From positions 3,479-41,290 of the forward strand of contig CAJOEM010000014.1 in the NCBI GenBank assembly GCA_905233725.1: 37,812 nucleotides of DNA. Reading direction: 5' to 3'. Shown piece by piece: positions 7,944 through 37,812 of the stretch. The translations under genes and the position numbers were made by a program. Under the pieces are notes generated by a model. It was not told where the DNA came from and did not search any database. It worked only from the letters and a program-made list of their open reading frames with translations. Position 1 is the stretch's first letter. Each line of letters begins with the position of its first letter. The stretch is from an uncultured Synergistales bacterium. Lineage in GTDB: Bacteria; Synergistota; Synergistia; Synergistales; Aminobacteriaceae.

Positions 7944-8783
7944 ATGAATATTATGGACGTAATGATAAATCCTCTGATTTTGATGGGCGTTATGGGCGGA
8001 GTGTTCGGAGTTTTGCTGGCGATTGCGTCGATAGTTTTCCGAGTTCAGCAGGACGAAAGAATAGGTCTAATCCGAGCAGCTTTACCAGGAGCGAATTGTG
8101 GTGGCTGCGGCTTCCCGGGTTGCGATGGTTACGCGTCAGGAGTTGTTAATGACGGCGTGGCTGTGAATAAATGCTCGGTTGGCGGTGAAGTTGTCGCGAA
8201 AAAAATTGCTGCAATTATGGGCGTTGATGCCGGTGAATCTGTCCCGATGAGAGCGTTCCTGAAATGCAAAGGCACACACGAAGCTTCCCCGAGAAATCTG
8301 ATTTATGACGGAATTAACGATTGCCGTTCTGCTGCGATGATTCCTGGAGGCTCACCAAATGCGTGTCCGTTTGGCTGCATTGGTCTTGGAACTTGTGTGA
8401 GCGTTTGCAAATTCGGCGCGTTGTCTATGGGCTCGGACGGCTTGCCAAAAGTTGACGTTGATAAGTGCGTTGCGTGTGGAGCGTGTGTTGCGAATTGTCC
8501 GAAGGGAATTTTCACACTCGTACCGAAAGCTGCTGACGTAATCGTTGCGTGTAACTCTCATTGGAAGGGACCGTTAGTGCGAAAAGTTTGTTCAGCTGGC
8601 TGCATTGGCTGCGGAATTTGCGCGAAAATTTGTCCGGTTCAGGCTATTGAGATTCAGAATGATTTGGCTGTAATCGATCAGGGCAAGTGCATCAAGTGCG
8701 GAAAGTGCGCTGCGAAATGTCCGGCGAAATGTATCAAGACCGGCGAATCTGGACAAGCTCCGGAACTCGAACAAACAGCGTAA
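7944..8783 (+). CDS. rnfB: Rnf complex subunit RnfB (ferredoxin-oxidising iron-sulfur subunit)
   Basis: RnfB receives electrons from reduced ferredoxin and passes them through a chain of [4Fe-4S] clusters. The 279-residue protein has an N-terminal membrane anchor (about residues 10-33) and then the Fes-type motif CGGCGFPGCDGYA with C52, C55, C60 and C77. Further Cys motifs follow: CPFGCIGLGTCVSVC, CVACGACVANCP, CIGCGICAKICP and CIKCGKCAAKCPAKC. This matches the cluster-rich RnfB of anaerobes. AGGAGGTG precedes the ATG. It is the last gene of the operon and is followed by a terminator hairpin. Confidence 0.97.
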   Translation: MNIMDVMINPLILMGVMGGVFGVLLAIASIVFRVQQDERIGLIRAALPGANCGGCGFPGCDGYASGVVNDGVAVNKCSVGGEVVAKKIAAIMGVDAGESVPMRAFLKCKGTHEASPRNLIYDGINDCRSAAMIPGGSPNACPFGCIGLGTCVSVCKFGALSMGSDGLPKVDVDKCVACGACVANCPKGIFTLVPKAADVIVACNSHWKGPLVRKVCSAGCIGCGICAKICPVQAIEIQNDLAVIDQGKCIKCGKCAAKCPAKCIKTGESGQAPELEQTA

Positions 8784-8799
8784 AATTCAGAACCAAAAA

Positions 8800-8845
8800 G
8801 CTCCCTTGATATTCGTTTCTGCGTTACTGAGGGAGCATATTTTTC
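8800..8845 (+). terminator. Rho-independent terminator after rnfB
   Basis: The arms GCTCCCT (8800-8806) and AGGGAGC (8830-8836) are perfectly complementary around a 23-base loop, followed by ATATTTTT. It ends only about 10 bases before the ATG of the next gene, which leaves very little room for that gene's own promoter. Confidence 0.8.
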
Positions 8846-8854
8846 ACTCTTAAA

Positions 8855-9703
8855 ATGAACCAGGCTAGCAAAAATTTTTTCAAGACGCAACTGAAAGACT
8901 ACGTTTCTACGATACCAGACAGGATAACTTCAGGTGGAGAATGGGATATAAGAGGATTCGTTGACATTCACAAAAATATTTACTCCATGCCATCGGACAC
9001 AAAAGTTATTTCGAAAGTTCTTGAGCTTCATTTGTTTCCGCTTCTCAGGGATTTTGCCGAAAAAATTGGTTATGATATTGAAGTTGCTTCATACCAAAAT
9101 TGGTACCCGGATTTTACGCTGACTTCAAGACATAATTCTGCTGTTAAGTTTGCACTTGACTTAAAAACTACGTACAGAGACGAAAAGCACGAGGAATTTT
9201 GCAACGGATTCACATTGGGTTCTCACGGTGAATATTTCACGAATAGGACTAGTGCGAAAAATATTCAGTATCCTTACGGGGATTACAGCGGACATTTTTG
9301 CCTAGGTGTCATATATTCGCGTGCCTTAGCAGACGGGTTTACGGAAAAATTCGCAGTATATAACTTCAAGGAACTCGAACAGATCCCAGCTGTCATAAAA
9401 GAATTTACGTTTTTCGCTGAGGAAAAATGGAAGATAGCCAGCGACAAGAGTGGTAGTGGAAACACCGCAAATATAGGCAGCATAAAATATATTGACGATC
9501 TCATTTCTGGTAACGGAGTATTCTCCAAAGCCGGAGAAAGTTTGTTCGATGATTATTGGATTAACTTCGGGAAAATTTTGATCCAGACTGAGAATGGGGG
9601 CTACAAAAAAATATCAAATCTTTCTGAATATCTGAATTACAGAGGTTTAGATAAGTCTCTGAACACTCCTGAAAAATCCAGAAAGTCTAGTGCGAGAGTA
9701 TGA
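8855..9703 (+). CDS. EcoRV-like type II restriction endonuclease, predicted specificity GATATC
   Basis: The protein (282 residues) aligns by eye with R.EcoRV along most of its length. Shared blocks are PSDTKVISKVLEL (EcoRV GSDTKVLSTIFEL), NWYPDFTL, LDLKTTY, FTLG, AKNIQYPYGDY, EKWKIASDKSGSGNTANIGS and DYWINF. The PD-(D/E)xK catalytic residues are Asp86, Asp102 and Lys104 (EcoRV D74, D90, K92), and Glu57 matches E45. The recognition loop GSGNT at 200-204 is identical to the EcoRV loop that reads the GAT half-site, which is why GATATC is predicted. The N-terminus is about 10 residues longer than EcoRV and the C-terminus diverges. No Shine-Dalgarno is visible before the ATG, so the start is uncertain. 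The gene is markedly AT-richer than its neighbours (about 35% versus 45% G+C in sampled lines), consistent with horizontal transfer. It overlaps the methylase gene by 4 bases (ATGA). Confidence 0.93.
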   Translation: MNQASKNFFKTQLKDYVSTIPDRITSGGEWDIRGFVDIHKNIYSMPSDTKVISKVLELHLFPLLRDFAEKIGYDIEVASYQNWYPDFTLTSRHNSAVKFALDLKTTYRDEKHEEFCNGFTLGSHGEYFTNRTSAKNIQYPYGDYSGHFCLGVIYSRALADGFTEKFAVYNFKELEQIPAVIKEFTFFAEEKWKIASDKSGSGNTANIGSIKYIDDLISGNGVFSKAGESLFDDYWINFGKILIQTENGGYKKISNLSEYLNYRGLDKSLNTPEKSRKSSARV

Positions 9704-32176: not shown

Positions 32177-32494
32177 ATGTACGAAGACGTTGTGAACGGA
32201 ATTTTGAGCGTTATCCCGGATAAAGTCGAGAGAATTATTCTGTACGGATCAGTTGCACGTGGCGACGACACACCGGAAAGCGACATTGACATCGCGTTAA
32301 TAACTCGTGAAAGTCTGAATCGTGACGAGTTTGCTCGAATAAGCAATTCGAATATGGAACTTGGCTGGAAGTATGAGAAATATATTTCTGTGGCAAATAT
32401 TCTCGAAAAACGTTTTTCGGCTTGGCAAAATACATCACCATTTTACAAAAACATAGCGAAAGAGGGAATCGTGTTATGGAAAAAAGCAGGTTAG
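32177..32494 (+). CDS. MNT-type minimal nucleotidyltransferase (candidate antitoxin)
   Basis: The 105-residue protein has the minimal nucleotidyltransferase signature GSVARGDDTPESDID, with Gly24-Ser25 and metal-binding Asp36 and Asp38. In MntA/HepT pairs such an enzyme adds AMP to the HEPN partner and silences it. Here it overlaps the HEPN gene by 19 bases, the usual paired layout. AAAGGAGTGA at the end of hisB is its ribosome site, so it is co-transcribed with hisCB unless an internal promoter exists. Confidence 0.88.
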   Translation: MYEDVVNGILSVIPDKVERIILYGSVARGDDTPESDIDIALITRESLNRDEFARISNSNMELGWKYEKYISVANILEKRFSAWQNTSPFYKNIAKEGIVLWKKAG

Positions 32495-32886
32495 ACTACT
32501 CGAAATACAGAATTGAAAAGGCAGAGAAAGAATTACGTATTGCAAAATCTTTGTTCAATGACGAAGAATTTGAGGCTTCAACAAATCGTTCTTACTACGC
32601 AATATTTCACGCGTTAAGATCTGTAACTGTTCTTGATGGCTTCGAATCGCGAAAACATTCCGGAATAATTTCTTACTTCAACTTGCATTACATTAAGACT
32701 GAAATTTTTCAGAGAGACATGTACTTGATGATTGATTCTGCGTTCACAGTGCGCAACAAAACCGATTATGAAGATTTTTATGTTATCTCACCCGAGGAAA
32801 CTCAGCGTCAAATTCACGATGCTGAAAAAATTCTAGGAATGATAAAGTCGTACCTGAAAATTCGCTGGGAAGAAGATCAGAATTAA
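32476..32886 (+). CDS. HEPN domain protein (candidate RNase toxin, partner of the MNT gene)
   Basis: A 136-residue helical protein starting at ATG 32476, behind AGAGGG; a longer frame from 32422 lies inside the MNT gene and lacks a ribosome site. The HEPN motif is NRSYYAIFHALR, with Arg38 and His45 forming the R-x6-H pair proposed as the RNase centre in this superfamily. Further family features are KHSGIISYFNLHY and the acidic DYEDFY. The pairing with an MNT gene suggests a toxin-antitoxin or defence role, but some HEPN/MNT pairs may do other RNA chemistry. It ends directly at the start of the Sel1/ankyrin gene. Confidence 0.87.
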   Translation: MEKSRLDYSKYRIEKAEKELRIAKSLFNDEEFEASTNRSYYAIFHALRSVTVLDGFESRKHSGIISYFNLHYIKTEIFQRDMYLMIDSAFTVRNKTDYEDFYVISPEETQRQIHDAEKILGMIKSYLKIRWEEDQN

Positions 32887-34575
32887 ATGTCCGAGAATAT
32901 AAATTACAAGCAGCTAATCCCGAAACTCATGAACGATGCGCGGCGCGGTGATGCAAAAGCTCAGTATCATCTGGGAGTTCTTTATCAGGACGGCAAAGTC
33001 GTTCCCAAAGATTACATTCAGGCGGCGAAATATTACACTCAAGCGGCTGCCAAAGGTCACGCAAAAGCTCAGTTGTATCTGGGACTGCTCTATCAGAACG
33101 GCAAAGGCTTCCCGAAAAATTACAAACAAGCTGCGTTCCTGTACTCTCAAGCGGCGGCTCAGGGCAACGAGAAAGCTATGTACTATCTCGGAATGCTCCA
33201 TTATTACGGCAAGGGCACTGACAAAAATCTCAACGAGGCGTTCAAATGGCTGACGGAATCTGCTTCACGCGGCTACCCGGAGGCTCAGAAAGTCATCGAC
33301 GAAATTCTCGCCGCAACTCGTGACGAAATCGCTCAGGAAATTTCTCAGGAACCAAAGCAAAAAACAGATTCTCAAGTTCAAGAGCCAAAACCAGAAATTA
33401 CAGCCAAGCATCACGAAGCAAATGACGCATTCAGAAAAGCTCTCGCCGAACAAGACGATGGCAATAATAACGCCTCTCAGAATGACGTTCCAAAAGCAAA
33501 ACCTGAGTCCAAGAAAAGCCGCGTCTACAAAATTTTCGCCCTGATAACTTTCGCTCTAACTGCAACTGCAATATTCATGTATTTCAGAAATTCACGCGCA
33601 ATAAACGTCCCAGAAAATAACGTGCTATCTCTGGGTGAACCAGTCGAAATTCCAGTCACTCAGCAAAACTCAACTCCGCCAACTCGCTTCGATCCGGATT
33701 CAGAAATCTTTGACGTGTACGGTCTCGCTGCAAACGGAAATCTAACCCAGCTTCAGAGCGCGGCGGCTAATGGCGCAAACTTCAACAAAGTCAACGATGA
33801 TGGCGAAACTCCACTTCATACGGCTGCTTCTCACAACAAACACACCGACACCGTGAAATTCTTGATAGACCAGGGACTCGATGTCAACGCTGAGCGCATC
33901 AAAGGCACTGGCGAAACTCCGCTCGCATTCGCAGTGATTCATAATAATGTCGAAGCTGTACGGGTTTTACTTTTGTGCGGTGCAAACGTGAATCTCAACA
34001 TCCCGGGAAAATCTCTGCTGTCAATCGCCGTCAAAAACGATTCTCCTGAGGTCGTGAATTTATTACTCGACGCAAAAGTCAGCCCAAATATTCGCGACGA
34101 AAATAACAAATTACCGATAGATTACGCAAACGAATTACCGCCAAATTCCCTGCTGAAAAATTCTCCCGTGTTCGACAGATTGCAATCCTCAAGCTCAAGC
34201 CCAGATGAGCCAACAGAAACTCCCGTCTCAAAGCAACCCGAAAAACAATCCGAGAGCGACAAAAACAAAATCGTTCAACGCGCCGTCCGTGAAAATCGCA
34301 TCCCGGATTACATATTCAAGCGCGGGAAATTCTCGTTCAATCCGTACGCCGAAAAATTAAGTGTAACCGGCTCAGGCGTAAGATTCAGATCCGAACCTAA
34401 CACAAAATCCAAAATCAAAACCGGTCTCAACAAAGGACAAATCCTGGAATATTACGGCGAATGGATCAGTCCTGCCGGAGAACGCTGGGTACTGGGTCTG
34501 GCGAAAAATTCGGATTCTGATTTCGGCTGGATTTACGGGCAATACACACAACTAATCAGCCCTAACTCAAATTAA
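32887..34575 (+). CDS. Sel1-repeat / transmembrane / ankyrin / SH3-like multidomain protein
   Basis: A 562-residue protein with an unusual domain chain. Residues ~20-140 hold about three and a half Sel1 (TPR-like) repeats (AQYHLGVLYQDGK, AQLYLGLLYQNGKG, AMYYLGMLHYYGKG). A charged linker follows, then one membrane helix at ~215-233. Ankyrin repeats occupy ~277-405 (DGETPLHTAA, TGETPLAFAV), and after a Ser/Pro/Lys linker an SH3-like domain lies at ~490-558 (VTGSGVRFRSEPNTKSKI to FGWIYGQY). With Lys/Arg before the helix, the Sel1 part is probably cytoplasmic and the ankyrin/SH3 part outside, perhaps near peptidoglycan; this topology is inferred. Its ATG abuts the HEPN stop. No enzymatic domain is visible; a scaffold or adaptor is likely. 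Confidence 0.88.
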   Translation: MSENINYKQLIPKLMNDARRGDAKAQYHLGVLYQDGKVVPKDYIQAAKYYTQAAAKGHAKAQLYLGLLYQNGKGFPKNYKQAAFLYSQAAAQGNEKAMYYLGMLHYYGKGTDKNLNEAFKWLTESASRGYPEAQKVIDEILAATRDEIAQEISQEPKQKTDSQVQEPKPEITAKHHEANDAFRKALAEQDDGNNNASQNDVPKAKPESKKSRVYKIFALITFALTATAIFMYFRNSRAINVPENNVLSLGEPVEIPVTQQNSTPPTRFDPDSEIFDVYGLAANGNLTQLQSAAANGANFNKVNDDGETPLHTAASHNKHTDTVKFLIDQGLDVNAERIKGTGETPLAFAVIHNNVEAVRVLLLCGANVNLNIPGKSLLSIAVKNDSPEVVNLLLDAKVSPNIRDENNKLPIDYANELPPNSLLKNSPVFDRLQSSSSSPDEPTETPVSKQPEKQSESDKNKIVQRAVRENRIPDYIFKRGKFSFNPYAEKLSVTGSGVRFRSEPNTKSKIKTGLNKGQILEYYGEWISPAGERWVLGLAKNSDSDFGWIYGQYTQLISPNSN

Positions 34576-34580
34576 CACGC

Positions 34581-34639
34581 AAAAAAATCCCCCATGATTT
34601 ACAGATTTATATCTCGCGATTCACGGGGGAAATTTTTTT
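34581..34639. terminator. Bidirectional terminator between convergent genes
   Basis: TCCCCCATGA (34588-34597) pairs with TCACGGGGGA (34621-34630) with one mismatch. It is flanked by seven A on the left and seven T on the right, so it can act on both strands, for the Sel1/ankyrin gene and for hpf. Confidence 0.88.
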
Positions 34640-35171
34640 AACGTTCCGGTTCGATTAATCCGTAAGAATTATTCTTGCGCTTGTACACAACGTTCACTTC
34701 GCCAGTGTCGGCATTCTGGAACATGAAGAACGAGTGTTCGATCAATTCCATTTGCATGATCGCCTCAACAGGATCCATCGGGTGAAGCTGAACTTTCTTG
34801 TTCTTGTCAATCACTGGAGCGTCGCTTGCTGGTTGATCCGAAGCTTCCTCAAGGCTGAATGAAATTTCGTCCGCCCCAAGTTGCGCCCTGTCCTTCAAGT
34901 ACGAATTGTAACGTTTGATTCTGCGTTCAAGATTCTTGAGTGACTGATCGAACGCTTTTCTCGGTTCGGGAGCATCCTCTTCCGCTCGCAAAATTACTCC
35001 GTTGGCATTAGCTGTCGTCTCGACGTTGAAGCTGCCCTTGTGATGTGTCACGACGATTTGGCAATTCAGAATTTTCTTGAAGAATTTTTCCATCTTGGAG
35101 ATTTTCTTCTCCATGTATTCCCTGAGTCGGTCGTCAATTTCAGCACCACGCTGCACAAATCTGATTTCCAT
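34638..35171 (-). CDS. hpf: Ribosome hibernation promoting factor, long form (HPF/RaiA)
   Basis: Long HPF binds the 30S decoding site and pairs ribosomes into 100S dimers in slow growth. The 177 residues comprise the S30AE domain (about 1-100: MEIRFVQRGAEIDDRLREY, VTHHKGSFNVE, DQSLKNLERRIKRY) and the C-terminal dimerisation domain (about 120-177: KVQLHPMDPVEAIMQMELIE, HSFFMFQNADTGEVNVVYKR). AAGGAGG precedes the ATG. The region upstream contains a divergent structured RNA. Confidence 0.97.
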   Translation of the reverse strand: MEIRFVQRGAEIDDRLREYMEKKISKMEKFFKKILNCQIVVTHHKGSFNVETTANANGVILRAEEDAPEPRKAFDQSLKNLERRIKRYNSYLKDRAQLGADEISFSLEEASDQPASDAPVIDKNKKVQLHPMDPVEAIMQMELIEHSFFMFQNADTGEVNVVYKRKNNSYGLIEPER

Positions 35172-35211
35172 TCTGAAAATAAACCTCCTTTGGTTATCTA
35201 ATTGCGGATTA

Positions 35212-35217
35212 ATTATA
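35212..35217 (-). promoter_or_regulatory. Likely -10 element of hpf
   Basis: On the minus strand this is a perfect TATAAT, 41 bases upstream of the hpf ATG. No clear -35 is seen at 16-18 bases. Confidence 0.5.
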
Positions 35218-35273
35218 GCAGCAGAAATTCATCCGTGCCTGTGAAAACTCTGCAAATTTTTCGCGTGAAAATT

Positions 35274-35302
35274 TTCGGAGTGATTTTGTTTGCGTGTATA
35301 AT
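35274..35302 (+). promoter_or_regulatory. Candidate promoter of the structured RNA
   Basis: A perfect TATAAT (35297-35302) preceded by TG has TTCGGA (35274-35279) 17 bases upstream. It would start transcripts near 35309, directed away from hpf. Confidence 0.55.
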
Positions 35303-35308
35303 TCTCGC

Positions 35309-35700
35309 ATCAACGGCGTATCCTTCAAATCGTTGTTCTAAAGACTTCGTTTCTTCTGCTTGAGTTAGCGAAAATCATCTCGCGGGAGGGTGCGTCGAGG
35401 AAAACGAACAGCGTAATTTTGAGGTGATAATCTGATAGGAGGTGCTTTGAAGTGTATAACGCTGCGGTTCAATTAGGACTGATTTCACGTTTGCGGGGTG
35501 TCTGCTCTAAGGGAAGCGGAAATTCCTGCGGCGACGTTCTCTGTCAAGGGCGATTGAGCCTGACGATGGGGATTTCGGCCGCACGTTATTCAGAGGGAAG
35601 GATAACGGGTAAGAATGAAATTTAGTTCGTGTTTTGAGCACGGACGCGCGTTTGTTGTTTTCACACGGAAGCACTCTTTCGTTGTGGGTTTTGATAATTT
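35309..35700 (+). ncRNA. Probable independent structured RNA, about 390 nt, divergent from hpf/raiA
   Basis: No convincing protein gene explains this stretch. Several helices can be drawn: ATCATCTC (35374-35381) with GAGGTGAT (35421-35428, one G-U); ATAACG (35456-35461) with CGTTAT (35584-35589); TGCGGC (35527-35532) with GCCGCA (35578-35583), which stacks directly on the previous helix; a GTCA/TGAC hairpin near 35542-35563 closed by GGC/GCC; and AGG-AA/TTCCT near 35511-35527. A promoter-like element lies just upstream and a terminator-like hairpin at the end. Local G+C is higher than in the flanking gaps. It does not match the conserved sequences of tmRNA, RNase P RNA, SRP RNA or 6S RNA as I know them. 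The raiA RNA motif of Bacillota and Actinomycetota is found beside raiA genes, so it is the first family to test. A 57-codon reading frame inside (35452-35625) is the main alternative. Confidence 0.6.
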
Positions 35701-35705
35701 ATTTT
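35662..35705 (+). terminator. Terminator-like hairpin at the end of the structured RNA
   Basis: CACACGGAAG (35662-35671) pairs with CTTTCGTTGTG (35676-35686), with one G-U pair and one bulged T, around a CACT loop. GGGTTTTGATAATTTATTTT follows. The T-tract is interrupted, so efficiency is uncertain. It separates the RNA from the downstream secreted-protein gene. Confidence 0.5.
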
Positions 35706-37638
35706 GAATATTCTTTTGTGTAAGGAATTATTTAAGGAGGAAAATCTCGCGGTAGTTCTTACGGCGTCATTTGCGTTTGCCGATACCTATTATCGCTGGA
35801 GGGGCGGCGACAGTGGCAAATGGGAAGACAAAGCTAACTGGCAGATGGCCAATGAGAGTTCTCTTACAGATGCCATTTGGGGGTCAGCTACAGAATATCC
35901 CGGCGCTAGCAGCAAGGATATAACTGAAGACAGTGAATTTGATCCTGTTGTTGCACTCTTCCAGTCGAATGCTAATGTCACGTTCAGTGCCAAATCAGTT
36001 GACATTCCCGTAGCTATCAGCGTTGACAACAAAACTTACCCGAATCAGTCTGGCATTAGTGTTAAGCTGAATTTGGGCAGTAGCAGCACGCTTACGGTTA
36101 CCGGAATCACAGTTAATGCCGGCTCAGCATTGGGTTCAGTCGCGTCTTTGACGATTGAGGGTGGTACTTTGTCTTCTGACGTAACAGAAGATGGTGTACA
36201 ATCTACACCGGTTGATCTGTCAGGTGGCGATCTTTCTTCACTCACTCTTAACACAAAGCTTGATAAGTTCGTGTTTGCACCTGGTGGGAATGATGATGCA
36301 TCATATACAGTGGGCGCAAATGGAGAACTCATTCTTGGGGCGAGAACCGGCAAGTTGGGTACTGGTAGCAATATCGTTGTCTATGACGGCGTAGTCAAAA
36401 TCAACAGCGTGAATCAGCTCTATGCTGCCAGCAAGGATGAAGAGATTAGTGTTACGTACACCGTTGGAGAAAACGGAACTCTTGCTATCAACTCTACGAT
36501 GACATTTGAGCCTAAGAGCACTGATCTTGATGCGGCAACTATTACAATCAGCGGCGCTCTCGATGTCAATGGAACGTTCACAATCGGTGGCGACAAGGGA
36601 GTTTTGAAAGCAGCGGCAGAAGAACCTTTATCTCTGGCAGTCACTGGCGGTACACTCGTGGTTAATACAGCAGAAGCAATCAGTTCTGATGTTAAATCTG
36701 TGGATCTCGCTGTCGAAAAGGGTGCAACGGTTGAGTTCAAGAAAGAAGTCAATGTTGCAGCTCTCGAGGGCGAAGGCACAGTGAAGTTTGCCACGGTCAA
36801 TTTCACTACTTCTGATACTGATGAGGATTATTCTTACACCGATTTCGAAGGCTCGATCACAGCAACCACAGCTACATTCGCAGACGGTGCAACGTATCCT
36901 TTCGGCGGCAACTCGAAAGTCAAAATCGCTGCAATCGATGTCAAGTATCCAAAAACACTCGGAGTGAGCGGCGATCTTGGTGACATAGCGGTCAACCTTG
37001 TTGCTGTTTCATCGGACGGCAGTTATAAGGGCGTTGGTTCTCTCGATGTTAAGGCTGATGCAGCTATCAAAACGTTGAAAGTCGATGGAGTGTATTCTAC
37101 TAATGCTGATCCTGCGAAAATCGTGTTTACTCTACCAGAAAACGCTGCAGATGAAGATGAAGGTCCGACGTTGACGGTTGAAAGTGTTACGTTCTTCAAC
37201 AACTACGCGACACTCAGCAAAGACCATGGATTGGCTAGTGCGACTGGTACGACCTTGCAAGCACTCAAGGTTGGTGATAGTGAGAGCACCGGCACGCTCG
37301 TGATTAAGGGCGGCAGTAACGGTACTGGAACGAAAGTTGCACTTATTTCCGGAGACGCAATCAATGTTGCTGCTGGCACACTGCGAATTGAGGGTGCTCT
37401 TGCTGACAACAATATCTATGTGAAAAACTCACGTTCAATGGTGGAAATTTCGAAACGGAACTCACCGAGGACAACGTTGACGACGAGTTCGCAGTTACGG
37501 TTGCTGGCAACGTCGAAATCATTGCTCAGACTACGATCAAAGTTGAACACTCACTTGGCAACGTCAAAGGAACAGAGTTTGCTCTTCTTACCAGTAAGAA
37601 GCTCTCCATGGATATGGAAGAGGAAGGTGGCCCTCTGA
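35704..37638 (+). CDS. Large secreted beta-rich passenger-type protein, first frame (apparent frameshift near 37427)
   Basis: The frame encodes 644 residues. An export signal (LAVVLTASFAFA) is followed by YYRWRGGDSGKWEDKANW, the W-x-G-x(n)-W-x(n)-NW opening seen in autotransporter-like passengers, and then Gly/Ser/Thr/Val-rich repeats typical of a beta-helix. The only start codons in frame are TTG at 35704 and 35716. They place a good AAGGAGG (35734-35740) inside the gene and add an atypical acidic n-region, so a normal ATG just after that site may have been lost. From about residue 575 the translation changes to Ser/Arg/Leu-rich sequence unlike the rest and stops at 37638, while the beta-rich pattern continues in another frame. 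Function: surface protein of unknown role. Confidence 0.7.
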   Translation: MNILLCKELFKEENLAVVLTASFAFADTYYRWRGGDSGKWEDKANWQMANESSLTDAIWGSATEYPGASSKDITEDSEFDPVVALFQSNANVTFSAKSVDIPVAISVDNKTYPNQSGISVKLNLGSSSTLTVTGITVNAGSALGSVASLTIEGGTLSSDVTEDGVQSTPVDLSGGDLSSLTLNTKLDKFVFAPGGNDDASYTVGANGELILGARTGKLGTGSNIVVYDGVVKINSVNQLYAASKDEEISVTYTVGENGTLAINSTMTFEPKSTDLDAATITISGALDVNGTFTIGGDKGVLKAAAEEPLSLAVTGGTLVVNTAEAISSDVKSVDLAVEKGATVEFKKEVNVAALEGEGTVKFATVNFTTSDTDEDYSYTDFEGSITATTATFADGATYPFGGNSKVKIAAIDVKYPKTLGVSGDLGDIAVNLVAVSSDGSYKGVGSLDVKADAAIKTLKVDGVYSTNADPAKIVFTLPENAADEDEGPTLTVESVTFFNNYATLSKDHGLASATGTTLQALKVGDSESTGTLVIKGGSNGTGTKVALISGDAINVAAGTLRIEGALADNNIYVKNSRSMVEISKRNSPRTTLTTSSQLRLLATSKSLLRLRSKLNTHLATSKEQSLLFLPVRSSPWIWKRKVAL

Positions 37639-37812
37639 CTTATTATGTCGAGAACGCTGTCGATGGCGAAGAAACTGCAGCTGACTTCAGCATCACCTCG
37701 AACGATACCGAAGTTTACCTCAAAGCTCTGCACGACTTCGTGACGATTGGTCATGGTGACGCATCGTTTGACGTACCTGCCTCTGCTTCAAATTGGGACG
37801 CGATTGCCAAAT
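37422..37812 (+). pseudogene. Continuation of the secreted passenger protein in a second frame; open at the right edge
   Basis: After the A5 tract at 37423-37427 the frame starting at 37422 reads KKLTFNGGNFETE-like beta-rich sequence and stays open to the window end (about 130 codons: TVAGNVEIIAQTTIKVEHSL, EFALLTSKKLSMDME, YVENAVDGEE, FVTIGHGDASFDV). It matches the composition and style of the upstream frame, so both belong to one ancestral gene. Adding one A to the tract would join them. It could be a real frameshift, a phase-variable tract, or a sequencing or assembly error. Confidence 0.7.

Follow-up and report, generated by a model that had tools for sequence, protein, structure and literature searches.

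Viral exoribonuclease-resistant RNAs carry an interleaved pseudoknot near their 5′ boundary. In the cry3A message of Bacillus thuringiensis, which encodes a very highly expressed protein, a Shine–Dalgarno sequence in the 5′ untranslated region (STAB-SD) needs no start codon and blocks RNase J1 (PMC4113751), and the mRNAs of S-layer proteins are unusually stable (PMC8056022). Control of leaders by CsrA has precedents of the flagellin-leader or iraD-leader kind, and the iraD leader of Escherichia coli is long, carries GGA sites and contains a short upstream open reading frame (ORF) that has its own Shine–Dalgarno sequence (PMC5574718). The raiA motif, or ModT RNA (RF03072), is a further pseudoknotted structured RNA. 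Here we analysed a 37,812-nucleotide (nt) stretch of DNA from an uncultured Synergistales bacterium (hereafter, the window). Its region at 35309–35700, beside hpf, is a genuine folded RNA that was previously unlisted, and it is very probably the structured 5′ leader, about 430 nt long, of a surface-protein mRNA.

The original prediction had placed a structured RNA here and, from the neighbouring ribosome hibernation gene, suspected a member of the raiA motif. None of the 4,227 models of Rfam 15 matched at the gathering threshold, and raiA (RF03072) gave no match in 35100–35800 up to E = 10; the best match at E ≤ 10, to RalA (whose cut-off is 170 bits), scored 13.6 bits and was set aside as chance. 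No tRNA or tmRNA was found in the region. With no Rfam family matched, the suggestion that the RNA is new has held up. The gene hpf lies at 34638–35171 on the minus strand, divergent from the leader, so that transcription does run away from it as proposed. A functional tie between the two finds no support in the relatives: hpf is present in 41 of 43 genomes, and those with an hpf match have the leader on another contig or more than 220 kb away (G030). Although the leader and the raiA motif are both pseudoknotted structured RNAs, and the leader adjoins hpf/raiA in this one genome, the leader has no covariance-model match, lies away from hpf in every relative compared and precedes a surface-protein gene, and the surroundings and conserved cores of the two RNAs differ. 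A divergent raiA-motif (ModT) RNA tied to ribosome hibernation has next to no chance of being the right reading.

The conserved unit extends from a promoter block at 35272–35302 (plus strand, like all features of the leader) to a second Shine–Dalgarno sequence at about 35745, slightly past the 35700 boundary drawn originally. The predicted −10 element is present as TATAAT at 35297–35302, and its position is the basis on which we place the transcription start about 7 nt downstream, near 35309. A block consisting of GCGTGTATAAT, exactly 9 nt and GGCGTA is conserved among leaders in both of our alignments (A1 and A7, described below); at the −35 position, the window has TTTTCGG, a weak element, versus TTGC(G/A) in relatives. 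The leader of the window is only mildly unusual in a single-sequence fold (minimum free energy z = −2.0 against shuffles), and the relatives therefore had to decide whether the structure is real.

Homologous elements were found when relatives were searched at the nucleotide level, as the original prediction had proposed. In the DNA search, seven more genomes of the genus yielded parts of the element, in one shared layout. The core pattern (the promoter plus the first conserved block) occurs in 15 of 43 genomes, with one copy in each and none in a reversed control. Named records with this pattern are Synergistaceae or Synergistales metagenome-assembled genomes (MAGs) from ruminants (goat, red deer and reindeer), and one uncultured Fretibacterium MAG also carries it. 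A sequence-only model, R1, added G028, G030, G022 and G003 to this set, as well as L097, a minimal form from G021, and L098 from G055, a genome of another genus; it gave no further match in the rest of the 188 genomes of the phylum, in a search whose fast filters lose weak matches. R2, a structured model built for the 3′ portion of the leader, recovered G055 strongly and added a third genus through G048, whose genome is one contig of 2,728,333 bases. In total, 20 genomes of the genus (the window included) have one leader each, and two other genera of the family are represented. About eight matches to the pattern outside the Synergistaceae were discarded as chance, because roughly 10–20 were expected by a hand estimate and no leader features were visible in them by eye. 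Weak R1 matches (L099–L102) were dropped, as no leader could be seen there; of the weak R2 matches L169, L170 and L171, the first was inspected and dropped for the same reason.

In every homologue with readable flanks, the leader is co-directional with, and directly precedes, a gene for a surface protein with a signal peptide. It is for this reason that we prefer a cis-acting leader to a free-standing RNA, and the RNA gene of about 390 nt originally proposed survives as a structured RNA but makes better sense as the 5′ leader of this gene. The proteins are secreted and mostly giant (670–1,937 amino acids among those seen). Complete genes that were inspected in full end in a C terminus of the GFGALAL...RRRRS type or a close variant, the exception seen being G055, which has another end; the Synergist_CTERM model (TIGR04564) scored above its cut-off in L103 and L107, and the tail was recognizable by eye, below the cut-off, in L105 and L104. 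Because a genome has several Synergist_CTERM genes but one leader, the leader belongs to one locus and is not a general feature of such genes. The locus is usually flanked by a gene for a HIGH-type nucleotidyltransferase and, on the opposite side, by a Fic-domain gene followed by hisH-hisA-hisF-hisIE. In L103, L105, L106 and L107, the same kind of gene lies after the surface-protein gene and before hisH-hisA-hisF-hisIE, and in L104 the gene after the surface-protein gene (8472–9032) encodes a Fic/DOC-domain protein (PF02661). Just upstream of the leader, genes at L103:1802–2683, L106:18939–19757 and L107:853–1671 have, by eye, the look of the Rpn/PD-(D/E)XK-type transposase family.

The leader RNA is, by sequence comparison, better conserved than the protein encoded behind it, because the proteins are barely alignable: the protein of the window and that of L003 have only a short N-terminal motif in common (E = 3 × 10^−4). 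In the window, the surface-protein gene occupies 35746–37812 and is truncated by the end of the contig. Comparison with the leaders of relatives indicates that it lacks a start codon and the initial portion of the signal peptide (junction at about 35745/35746), and a frameshift lies in a run of A near 37420. This damage may reflect a decaying locus or an assembly error; the helices of the leader are intact despite it. Elsewhere in the window, two overlapping small genes at 32177–32886 resemble, by eye, an MNT nucleotidyltransferase and HEPN pair, possibly a toxin–antitoxin system, and 32887–34575 encodes one protein with Sel1 repeats, a likely transmembrane segment, ankyrin repeats and a weak SH3-like domain. 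At the start of the same contig (positions 1–6000) lie a brief stretch of unresolved bases and the gene for a further protein of very large size, which has Ser/Glu-rich repeats.

In two genomes, an orthologous gene occupies this locus behind little or no leader, a remnant hairpin being all that is left in L115 (G040) and nothing in L125 (G029); the leader is therefore not indispensable. These two loci amount to a natural deletion of the element. In G031, the surface-protein gene itself is absent from the locus.

The firmest structural evidence comes from the 5′ domain. In A1, an alignment of 16 sequences built from sequence alone, we scanned without bias for every helix of 5 base pairs (bp) or longer in which each column pair was paired in at least 80% of sequences. 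The three best helices, of 8 bp each, were A (alignment columns 51–58/139–146), B (73–80/153–160) and C (124–131/181–188). Their strands follow the order A1-B1-C1-A2-B2-C2, so that all three cross one another in a pseudoknot order. In these helices, 93.8% of cells are paired, compared with 32–55% for slid versions, and 10 pairs have double changes, a level of covariation that was reached in none of 500 shuffles. Alignment A7, of 20 sequences, adds G048 from another genus and three further leaders; here 14 pairs have double changes (26 such cells), again exceeded by 0 of 500 shuffles. B and C still came first in the unbiased scan of A7, and A dropped out, because L042 is shifted in that alignment and three leaders have a changed helix A.

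In the window, the strands of all three helices are fully complementary. Helix A pairs GGCGUAUCC (35315–35323) with GGGUGCGUC (35388–35396) over 9 bp, with a duplex energy of −12.0 kcal/mol, and helix B pairs CGUUGUUC (35331–35338) with GAACAGCG (35406–35413) over 8 bp; the window row is misaligned at the 3′ strand of helix B, and its pairing was read by hand. Helix C joins (A)AUCAUCUC at 35373–35381 to GAGGUGAU(A) at 35421–35429, with 8 bp formed from 35374–35381, and AUCAUCUC/GAGGUGAU is compensatory against the GCAUCCC/GGGAUGU of relatives. Between the 5′ strands of B and C lies a near-invariant motif, UUUCUUCUGC at 35350–35359 (UCUUCUGCC in relatives), visible as invariant columns in A1 and A7. 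G048 keeps A, B and C through compensation, with GGCGCGGCC/GGCCGCGUC, CGUCGC/GCGACG and CGUCCCC/GGGGGCG, as read by hand. The helices are not universal: L041 is without a partner for A, and C is absent from short forms. The three pairings could form one simultaneous pseudoknot or alternate in time.

Further downstream, hairpins G, H and F also have compensatory changes across leaders. Hairpin H (35584–35607; CGUUAU...AUAACG, with GGGAAGG in its loop) is paired in 96.8% of cells and has a C-G to U-A exchange in another genus. Hairpin F (35625–35645; GUUCGUG...CACGGAC), the terminal hairpin of the original prediction, is present as described: it appears in the fold, is paired in 97.1% of cells with double changes, and its stem is rebuilt in L098. 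Hairpin I (UUCACACGGAAG...CUUUCGUUGUG, 35660–35686) appears in the fold of each leader. GGGAAGG occurs in two hairpin loops.

The two stacked long-range helices that had been named in the original prediction correspond to our helix D (35456–35468, AUAACG-C-UGCGGU, with 35577–35589, GGCCGCA-CGUUAU). Its first part stands as proposed (ATAACG at 35456–35461 with CGTTAT at 35584–35589), but the second is TGCGGT (35463–35468) with (G)GCCGCA (35577–35583); an exact TGCGGC occurs only at 35527–35532 and would not stack. Pairing in helix D is retained in 96.6% of cells, yet it covaries no more than shuffles do; the helices that covary best, A, B and C, are not the two originally named. Short leaders do without helix D entirely, and an E hairpin in these short leaders is plausible by eye, with a count no higher than in shuffles. 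Because CGUUAU (35584–35589) is common to both, D and H are mutually exclusive, this strand alternatively pairing with 35602–35607.

Between the two domains lies an internal Shine–Dalgarno sequence, SD1 (AGGAGGUG, 35437–35444). A Shine–Dalgarno-like sequence, mostly GGAGGUG, was present in all 18 leaders inspected; a usable ATG, GTG or TTG follows at a suitable distance in 12 of them (the status of L042 was read by hand), and SD1 is kept even in the 6 that have no standard start codon. In the window, SD1 precedes an ORF for 57 amino acids with a GTG start (35452–35625). In relatives, the corresponding frame has 39 codons in one case and 45 in five others, and its stop usually falls inside hairpin H; the frame runs past this usual stop in the window and L049. 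A pooled pN/pS of 0.76 across the six relatives indicates little purifying selection, and we regard a coding explanation of the region as weak; the original view that the region has no good protein explanation is thus in the main upheld. The leader ends with SD2 at 35734–35741 (AAGGAGGA here, and AAGGAGGA or AGAGGAGGA in all extracted leaders), followed by a conserved UUG start of the downstream gene. The near-invariant motif between the 5′ strands of B and C, UCUUCUG, is complementary to both SD1 and SD2 and is a possible anti-Shine–Dalgarno sequence. The 7-bp helix that it could form with SD1 is what is left over in the unbiased scans of both A1 and A7; the duplex energies, in a comparison whose L040 row had caught a wrong site, are modest and only moderately exceptional, and the near-invariance of the motif places the pairing beyond the reach of covariation.

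The best overall explanation, to which we give a probability of roughly 0.6, is that the element is a structured cis leader that sets the stability, the translation or both of a strongly expressed surface-protein mRNA; most likely, the interlocked fold controls the amount of surface protein that is made. The leader would act in cis and post-transcriptionally, on a transcript from a strong promoter. We propose, tentatively and at less than even odds, that protection of the mRNA against decay from the 5′ end would come from the compact pseudoknot there together with a 30S subunit parked on SD1, and that a ribosome would in this way also be kept near the gene. If the pseudoknot does not form, UCUUCUG might pair with SD1 or SD2 and so create an off state. 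Overall, the output of an abundant surface protein would be set, and possibly switched.

Both this leader and cry3A have a Shine–Dalgarno sequence in the 5′ untranslated region, which in the present leader, too, may be kept without need of a start codon (although 12 of 18 leaders have a usable one), and RNase J is encoded in both hosts (538.8 bits against a cut-off of 400 in this genome). The two differ in that their sequences are unrelated and the stabilizing role of the present leader is putative, and the cry3A description consulted mentions no pseudoknot. The 5′ interleaved pseudoknot could resist 5′–3′ decay in the manner of the viral exoribonuclease-resistant RNAs, a likeness that is an analogy and involves no relation in sequence. 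SD1 could, counter to a parked ribosome, simply serve the short ORF.

That possibility leads to a rather unlikely account in which the short ORF is translated from SD1 and the movement or stalling of the ribosome selects D or H and thereby the fate of the downstream message. The open frame with its stop inside H, the mutual exclusion of D and H and the partly synonymous variation of LRLR codons fit such leader-peptide control; the pN/pS value, the leaders lacking a standard start, the frame overrunning its usual stop in the window and L049 and the absence of D from short leaders speak against it. Control by CsrA, which would bind GGA in the hairpin loops and at SD1 and SD2 and repress the message or be titrated by it, is unlikely. 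Of 43 genomes, 41 encode a member of the CsrA family (in 40, above the cut-off), GGGAAGG recurs in the two loops, and GGA occurs 171 times versus 111 expected (maximum of 135 in 200 shuffles), but the two Shine–Dalgarno sequences together contain about three GGA in each leader, which make up nearly all of the excess, and the 5′ pseudoknot would need another reason. We therefore rejected CsrA as the main cause of the GGA motifs. The leader resembles that of iraD in its length, its GGA sites and its short upstream ORF preceded by a separate Shine–Dalgarno sequence, but the iraD ORF has a stop that overlaps the gene start, coupling the two, whereas here the ORF ends more than 100 nt upstream in most leaders; and iraD is controlled by CsrA, whereas the sites here are candidate CsrA sites.

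A stand-alone small RNA that ends at hairpin F or I and merely adjoins the surface-protein gene is improbable. It would have its own promoter; F is one terminator-like match in our scan, with T runs after it in some leaders (for example, L046 and L049). Yet the two terminator-like sites in the window are not clearly above shuffles (mean 0.9, s.d. 1.0), and we did not retain an intrinsic terminator; moreover, SD2 comes a short distance later with no second conserved promoter in between, and the element invariably stands co-directionally right before the surface-protein gene even though the locus differs between genomes. A ligand-sensing riboswitch, in which the interleaved 5′ domain would be an aptamer that masks or frees SD1 and SD2, is highly improbable: the compact pseudoknot order, the near-invariant UCUUCUG and the fixed position at the 5′ end would suit an aptamer, but only a surface-protein gene is associated, with no metabolic or transport gene to hint at a ligand, the distribution is narrow, the lengths of the strands between helices vary a lot, and helix C is absent from some leaders.

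We therefore return to the structured cis leader of a surface-protein gene, which is well supported and new to Rfam, and whose mechanism we infer. The raiA-like guess drawn from the gene neighbourhood was wrong, yet the RNA itself is real. Its more far-reaching form, which we hold as a possibility at less than even odds, is a new Synergistaceae RNA family in which a triple-interleaved 5′ pseudoknot, conserved in front of a protein that diverges almost completely, would serve as a switch dedicated to the stability and translation of the mRNA for a variable surface layer, perhaps combining an exonuclease-blocking knot with a site for an idling ribosome. The finding adds to a little-studied phylum a structured leader RNA that is absent from Rfam 15 and has an uncommon helix order, and it provides a handle on the control of a large, fast-changing surface protein in these mostly ruminant-gut bacteria.
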